DNA from: Verrucomicrobiales bacterium
GTDB lineage: Bacteria; Verrucomicrobiota; Verrucomicrobiia; Verrucomicrobiales; V1-33
Length of the DNA: 54,086 bases
Direction of reading: 5' to 3'
NCBI GenBank assembly: GCA_947460575.1
Contig: CANHIJ010000009.1
Coordinates: 1 to 54,086 of the forward strand
Shown: piece by piece, positions 52,378 through 54,086 of the stretch
How positions within the stretch are numbered: the first letter of the stretch is position 1
Layout: every line of letters begins with the position of its first letter
The notes under the pieces: generated by a model
What the model saw: the letters and a program-made list of their open reading frames with translations, nothing else
Database searches by the model: none
Told to the model about the DNA's origin: nothing
Made by a program: the position numbers and the translations under genes

Positions 52378-53451
52378 TCAATTGCCCGCCACGTCGGCCT
52401 CCAGGGGCAGGGGAGCCCCGTCGACCAAGTGGTCCGCCAGTTGCCTCGCGTAGCGCGGCCCGTGCAGCACCCCCTTGGAGCCCAGCCCATTAAAGAAGGC
52501 TAGGGTGGGGTGCACCGGATGCCGCCCCAGGCGGGCCAAACTTTGGTGGATGATCGGCCGCACGGCGGCTTCCTGACCGACCACGCGCCAGGGCACCCGG
52601 AGCAGGCGGCTCAGCCGCTCCTCCAGCAGGGCCCGCGCGGCCTCGGTGGGCTGCTCGTCCAGTTGGTCCCAGCCGTAGGTCGAGCCGGTCCGAAACGTGC
52701 CCGCGCCATCCACCGGCAGCAGCCAGCCCCCGGCATTAACGATGCGGCGCTCCGCGGCTAGCGCCGGCGCTTCAATGGTCAAAATTTCTCCCTTGGCGCA
52801 CTTCCAGGCGATCCACGGAAACCACGGATTGCTCCGGGCCGCCGCGCCCTCGCAGAAAATCACCGCCGCCGCCGCCGACCCATCCTCCAGCCGCACGCCC
52901 CAGCGCTCCGGCACCAGGGCCGCCGCATTCACCGCGCGCCGCTGCAGCAGCCCGCGCTCCGCAAACCACGCCGCGCTGTCCTCTAGCCAAGCCCGCGTCT
53001 CCAGCCACCCGCTCGTGACCATCTCAAATCCCCGCCCGCTGCCCTGAAAAAGCGCCAAATCCACCAGCGGCTCCGCCCGCTCCGGCGCCACGTGCCCCGC
53101 AAAATCCGCCGCCGCGCACTTGACCGCAAAGCGCCGCGGTTCCTCCTCGCCCCGGAAAAGCCGCACCTGCGCCCGCCGGTGAAAATGCGCCCGCCCCAAG
53201 ACCCGCGCCACCGCCCCATAACTCGCCCAGGCCTCCTCCAAAAAAGCCCCCACCTCCGACCCCAGCGCCAGCCGCTTGCCCGTAATCGGAGTCACAATCC
53301 CCGCCGCCACCTTCGACGAACTCACCGCCGCCCCCTCGTCCACCAGCAACACCCGCTGCCCGCGCCGCACCAACTCCCACCCCAACAGCGTTCCCGCCAA
53401 ACCTTGCCCCACAATCACCATCGGAGCCCCCGCGCGCACTGCATTCAACAT
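52378..53451 (-). CDS. FAD-dependent amino-acid-oxidase-fold oxidoreductase
   Basis: A 357-residue DAO-fold enzyme. The FAD-binding loop is VIVGQGLAGTLLGWELVRRGQRVLLVDEG (about 12-40), followed by SSSKVAAGIVTPITGKRLALG, AKGEILTIEAP and the closing FFNGLGSKGVLHGPRYA, which contacts FAD. These place it in a DAO subfamily near glycine oxidase ThiO and the oxidase half of MnmC; the substrate is unknown. A partner role for MnmM, one gene away, is possible but unproven. The ATG at 53451 begins just before the FAD loop. Coding DNA is G-rich on its own strand, unlike the minus-strand genes before 40 kb. Confidence 0.8.
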   Translation of the reverse strand: MLNAVRAGAPMVIVGQGLAGTLLGWELVRRGQRVLLVDEGAAVSSSKVAAGIVTPITGKRLALGSEVGAFLEEAWASYGAVARVLGRAHFHRRAQVRLFRGEEEPRRFAVKCAAADFAGHVAPERAEPLVDLALFQGSGRGFEMVTSGWLETRAWLEDSAAWFAERGLLQRRAVNAAALVPERWGVRLEDGSAAAAVIFCEGAAARSNPWFPWIAWKCAKGEILTIEAPALAAERRIVNAGGWLLPVDGAGTFRTGSTYGWDQLDEQPTEAARALLEERLSRLLRVPWRVVGQEAAVRPIIHQSLARLGRHPVHPTLAFFNGLGSKGVLHGPRYARQLADHLVDGAPLPLEADVAGN

Positions 53452-53520
53452 CCCACCTCATCCCACCACCACCCCCCGCGCGAAAGCGCAATCCCACCCC
53501 CCTCCTCCCTCCCATTATTA

Positions 53521-53548
53521 ACTTCCGACAATGTATGTCATGTAAAAT
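53521..53548 (+). promoter_or_regulatory. dif-like XerCD recombination site
   Basis: The 28 bases split as left arm ACTTCCGACAA, centre TGTATG and right arm TCATGTAAAAT. Against the Bacillus subtilis dif site as I remember it, 22 of 28 positions match (9/11, 4/6 and 9/11). The right arm also matches 9 of 11 bases of the Escherichia coli XerD arm. The site is AT-rich amid very GC-rich DNA. It lies about 10 kb beyond the point where G/C strand bias reverses, in keeping with a terminus location. Confidence 0.6.
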
Positions 53549-53801
53549 ACAAAGCAGCAAAACCCCCAAAGAATCGCCCAGCCCCATCCCCATCGTAAGT
53601 GAGGTCCACCAGCTTCGTCCCCTCCCGCGGCACCGCCTTCAGGTTGCTCACCACCGGATCCCCCGCCTGCCCTGGCAGCGCCCCCAAGATCAAAACAGCG
53701 GCGCACAGCGCCGCCCCGCGGCCCGAGAAAGCACTGACAAAAAGCGAGGACACGAGAAGCTGAAAGGAGAGAAGGCTCAGAGGATTGAAAAAAAGAAACA
53801 T
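53538..53801 (-). pseudogene. Truncated N-terminus of a secreted SUMF1-type protein (remnant)
   Basis: An 87-residue frame begins with hydrophobic, signal-peptide-like sequence (CAAVLILGALPGQAGD) and continues DPVVSNLKAVPREGTKLVDLTYDGDG. The pattern VSNxxAxxRxGTKLVDxxYD opens many verrucomicrobial formylglycine-generating-enzyme-like (SUMF1) proteins, where a domain of several hundred residues follows. Here homology-like sequence stops near 53575 and the frame ends inside the dif-like site, so the body is missing. It could instead be a short independent protein. The true start is uncertain (53801, or an internal start). Confidence 0.5.
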
Positions 53802-54086
53802 TCAAAAGCGCCAGAGCGCCGCGCCCCCAACCCTTCTGCCAAGAGGATCCCAGATCGCCGCCCCCCCTTCCCTAAAGCGTCCTCACAGCCTCGTCGAGCC
53901 GTTCCATCCCACCGCTCGATATCCACTCTCCAACACTCTCCTCAGCGCCCCCTGGCGCCACCGCCGCCAGCACCCCCGTTCCACTCCCTCCGCTACGCCT
54001 CTTCGTTCGTCCCTCACTCCGGGCTCCGCTGCGTTCGCTCCACTTCTCGCGCTCCGCGTTGCTTGCTGTTAGGGAACTGAACTGCG

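Follow-up and report, generated by a model that had tools for sequence, protein, structure and literature searches.

The 28-mer at positions 53521–53548 of the window (the 54,086-nt stretch analysed here, which is the whole of contig C9 in a draft genome of 216 contigs and 4.21 Mb, 89.6% complete) is almost certainly the chromosomal dif of this uncultured Verrucomicrobiales bacterium. dif is the place where accidentally fused chromosome copies are separated before cell division. The site had been called a probable dif in the initial annotation, a reading that its uniqueness, its conservation and the convergence of octamers on it now support. What is demonstrated is the sequence itself, these three properties, the skew switch that complete relatives have at the homologous site, and the presence of genes for all three proteins (XerC-like, XerD-like, and FtsK). 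It is a known kind of element, in a little-studied lineage.

The site has the layout of known dif sequences, with two 11-bp arms around a 6-bp centre (Table 1). A recount against the Bacillus subtilis dif agrees with the 22/28 identity first reported, with 9/11 in each arm, and gives 4/6 in the centre; identity to the Escherichia coli dif is 19/28 overall. The reference sequences are what we take to be the B. subtilis and E. coli sites. The runner-up match to B. subtilis dif anywhere in the window is 16/28.

Table 1. Features at and around the dif site; positions are those of the window.
Feature	Position	Strand	Sequence	Remarks
dif core, 28 bp	53521..53548	+	ACTTCCGACAATGTATGTCATGTAAAAT	22/28 vs. 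B. subtilis dif; unique in assembled genome; conserved in order
Presumed XerC-binding arm	53521..53531	+	ACTTCCGACAA	Assigned from the register of the E. coli and B. subtilis sites; binding presumed from these
Central 6-bp region, presumed place of strand exchange	53532..53537	+	TGTATG	In register with known dif; TRTATG in relatives
Presumed XerD-binding arm	53538..53548	+	TCATGTAAAAT	9/11 vs. right arm of B. subtilis and of E. coli dif
Triplet outside XerC arm	53518..53520	+	TTA	(A/T)TA in relatives, giving a 31-bp conserved unit
Nearest KOPS-like octamer on left, directed at dif	52405..52412	+	GGGNAGGG	
Nearest KOPS-like octamer on right, directed at dif	53865..53872	-	CCCTTCCC (as read on + strand)	
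Left neighbour, FAD-dependent oxidoreductase (DAO)	52378..53451	-		Pfam DAO; start 69 bp from site
Right neighbour, 54-codon 5′ fragment of dispersed multi-copy gene family	53577..53738	-		Truncated close to dif

Within the assembled 4.2 Mb (a draft, about 90% complete) the site is single, as a chromosomal dif should be, and it is the best match in the genome, as had been predicted for it: 53521–53548 is the only copy at up to 3 mismatches. A dif profile (28 columns, from 28 distinct sites of the order, the one under study among them) likewise has it as its single match in the draft (E = 2.9e-7), with no other in the assembled genome to E = 10.

The expectation that the site would be conserved in relatives is also borne out. 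The identical 28-mer is present in the congeners G001 and G004, and a third congener, G003, differs at two positions; the centre is kept as TRTATG among relatives. Of the order's 289 genomes, 72 have a near-identical site by a degenerate consensus with up to 3 mismatches allowed, one copy in each except G118, where there are two, one lying right at a contig end; the reversed pattern, run as a control, has none in the same 289 genomes. Profile matches at E ≤ 1 occur in 91 of 113 relatives. Across the phylum, 20 of 194 genomes have a match at E ≤ 0.001, fifteen of the same order and five of the same class; the profile fades outside the order, and is therefore order-level, not phylum-wide.

Around the site, little else is shared. 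When this genome is compared with G003, G004, or G006, the only nucleotide similarity near the site is a stretch of 32–37 bp covering dif, the flanks being non-homologous, which points to a short element held constant amid changing surroundings. G001 retains the left flank (about 81% identity, from -1149 to +46), and does not retain the right one.

The octamer GGGNAGGG is the consensus of the KOPS sequences that orient E. coli FtsK. An unbiased scan of 11 genomes for octamers with polarity towards the site ranked GGGCAGGG first (87 towards, 9 away), which fits this consensus. The polarity of GGGCAGGG is 99:10, vs. 2937:1115 for composition-matched permutations of its letters (Fisher p = 5e-6). 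The change point of GGGNAGGG polarity includes the site in 12 of 13 genomes, this one among them, with a switch interval of -1116 to +344 bp relative to the site here, -304 to +856 bp in G003, and -1123 to +1231 bp in G001. For two of the 12 (G067 and G032) another interval scores equally well, and in G006 the convergence rests on only 3 octamers; the exception, without convergence, is G009 (3/9 octamers). In the window, 46 octamers to the left of the site are forward and 1 is reverse; only 538 bp lie to its right, so that convergence in this genome depends on one right-hand octamer.

Octamer polarity was used in place of plain GC skew, which was too noisy: around dif in 13 genomes, there is a clear switch in G001, and a weak one or none in most others. 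GC skew over positions 1–42000 of the window is very strongly positive, reaching +0.48 per 2 kb at 61–71% GC, and far stronger than that around dif in most relatives.

A further expectation was that the site would lie at the cumulative GC-skew maximum opposite dnaA and the origin, of which the terminus part stands in relatives and the dnaA part does not. In three complete relatives (G025, G051, and G103, the single-contig genomes in which skew was sampled around the whole chromosome), the skew, from positive to negative, and the GGGNAGGG polarity both switch between the samples flanking the profile's dif. On the 2.65-Mb circle of G025, the opposite skew switch, taken as the origin, is near 0.93 Mb, about 1.33 Mb from dif, almost exactly half-way around. 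Within the window, the cumulative skew peaks 11.4 kb to the left (upstream) of the site, or about 0.3% of the genome away; octamers within this 11.4-kb stretch are still directed at the site, so the reversal of skew there is probably local. dif and skew shift points are correlated, but need not coincide (Kono et al., PMC3025954).

dnaA was dropped as an origin marker, since dif is not opposite to it in complete relatives. This was seen on G025:C1, G021:C1, G034:C1, G080:C1, G058:C1 (presumed Akkermansia), and G051:C1; in G025, whose skew origin is near 0.93 Mb, dnaA is at base 31 and only about 0.39 Mb separates it from dif.

Judging by protein models, the genome encodes the probable cognate recombinases, one XerC-like and one XerD-like, and an FtsK with a gamma domain. 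There are two full-length tyrosine recombinases, the catalytic motif regions being readable in both. The first has its best scores with the PRK00283 subfamily, where it passes the cut-off, and, among Xer equivalogs, with XerD; the other, among these equivalogs, scores best with XerC. The XerC-like and XerD-like scores are both under the NCBIfam equivalog cut-offs, as is likewise the case for the XerD model in 10 of 14 control genomes. The FtsK gamma domain, in a 1108-aa frame, scores 90 bits, well above cut-off, and is homologous to solved FtsK gamma domains. At L046:1501-1686 it reads GYGRAARMMD, vs. GYNRAARMIE in Pseudomonas aeruginosa, yet the GGGNAGGG octamers are kept.

On a different reading, the 28-mer would be a dif-like attachment site belonging to a mobile element that uses Xer and has integrated here (a phage, an integrative element, or a plasmid), or else a cer-type site for plasmid resolution. 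Xer-dependent elements do carry dif-like sites, and the right-hand surroundings could be taken as a trace of one: the gene fragment there ends abruptly, no more than about 45 bp from dif, and a dispersed repeat closes the contig. The N-terminus of the fragment has nine further matches in the genome (ten in all), several in frames of over 1000 aa, with the motif DPVVSNLKAVPREGTKLVDLTYD. The terminal repeat (53949–54086) also occurs in contigs C116, C157, C50, C119, C44, and C185 at 80–100% identity, which probably explains the assembly break beside dif. The attachment-site reading is nevertheless improbable: the site is present once per genome, at the switch of skew and octamers in relatives, and is conserved across unrelated flanks, while the window holds ribonucleotide reductase (large- and small-chain) and other housekeeping genes. 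Other genes to the left of the site include those for a sialic-acid-specific acetylesterase-like protein and a putative rRNA methylase. An integrative element should comprise genes for recombination, with a second dif-like site marking its boundary. No recombinase was found among the six proteins scanned in the last 14 kb of the window, no integrase was seen adjoining the site, and there is no second dif-like site bounding an element in the window or the assembled genome. A scan of IMG/VR viral contigs for exact and degenerate dif gave no match.

It is very unlikely that the 28-mer is instead conserved as a promoter, operator, or terminator of a neighbouring gene, or for some other reason. Lying upstream of the DAO gene, 69 bp from its start, it would be suitably placed for such a function, but the site persists while its flanks change (G003 and G004 keep it without homologous flanking DNA), and its location follows octamer convergence rather than any gene. 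Coincidence, with an AT-rich sequence in GC-rich intergenic DNA happening to look like dif, was a fair concern while a single reference sequence was compared with the window by eye; it can be dismissed, as had been asserted at the outset: matches of at least 22/28 are expected 1.7e-6 times per window and 1.3e-4 times per 4.2 Mb (first-order Markov model of the window, both strands counted), and conservation in relatives with unrelated flanks refutes it.

Taking the 28-mer as the chromosomal dif, its operation can be outlined; Xer binding, strand exchange, and FtsK activation we infer from E. coli and B. subtilis. When recombination has left sister chromosomes joined as a dimer, FtsK located at the division septum would pump DNA, directed to dif by the GGGNAGGG octamers on both replichores, and would so bring the two dif copies together, with XerC presumably on the left arm of each and XerD on the right. 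The gamma domain would then activate XerD, and XerC and XerD together would separate the chromosomes by exchanging strands about the 6-bp centre.

A newly seen detail is the conserved (A/T)TA directly before the XerC arm, which by its sequence conservation may extend the site to a 31-bp unit. Positions -3 to -1 are 88, 94, and 98% conserved, on a par with the 28-bp core, in 50 rows (45 distinct loci, as five rows repeat the same locus) with otherwise unrelated flanks. These positions were outside the search patterns used to pick the matches, so their conservation is not a selection effect. The triplet is missing, from junctions read directly, in the presumed Akkermansia genomes and in G103; in g5, presumed to be Akkermansia, the homologous site is ACTTCGCATAATATATGTAATGCAAAAT, without ATA. 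The presumed Akkermansia genomes belong to family f2, and G001 and G004 to f1. One could conjecture, although we would lean somewhat against it as a whole, that the functional dif is 31 bp in f1 (the family of this genome), f3, and f4, and not in f2, with the triplet contacted by XerC or needed for asymmetry; and that FtsK in these lineages is oriented by the E. coli octamer GGGNAGGG, despite differences, in this genome, within the aligned recognition region of the gamma domain.

The results show where the region of the replication terminus lies in the genome of an uncultured member of the Verrucomicrobiales. They add an order-level dif consensus, evidence for convergence of GGGNAGGG in the order, and the possible 31-bp unit, and GGGNAGGG-directed FtsK guidance probably extends to the Verrucomicrobiota. 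With the dif profile, which is usable for much of the order, termini can be located in fragmented genomes whose GC skew is too noisy; in the relatives examined, dnaA does not mark the origin well, and for termini the profile offers an alternative.

Known systems close to it include the sites in Akkermansia muciniphila, Opitutus terrae, and Methylacidiphilum infernorum, of the same phylum, for which Kono et al. (2011, PMC3025954) predicted dif using profiles from Firmicutes and Proteobacteria. The remark in the initial annotation that verrucomicrobial dif sites are little described is thus fair in substance, with the qualification that this work made predictions for all three Verrucomicrobia then available; apart from it, literature searches turned up no work devoted to dif or KOPS in Verrucomicrobia.

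The B. subtilis dif (Firmicutes, CodV/RipX) is alike in its 28-bp length, its 11-6-11 layout, and its 22/28 identity, with both arms at 9/11; of the six mismatched positions, the arms have four and the centre two, and it also differs from the relatives of the present site, which add the conserved (A/T)TA before the XerC arm. With the E. coli dif, the likeness is in the right arm (9/11) and the centre (5/6), while the left arm matches at just 5/11. The same octamer consensus as that of E. coli KOPS, GGGNAGGG, converges on the Verrucomicrobiales site, and an FtsK gamma domain is likewise shared, whereas the gamma domain here differs from the E. coli system, the stretch aligned with P. aeruginosa GYNRAAR reading GYGRAAR.
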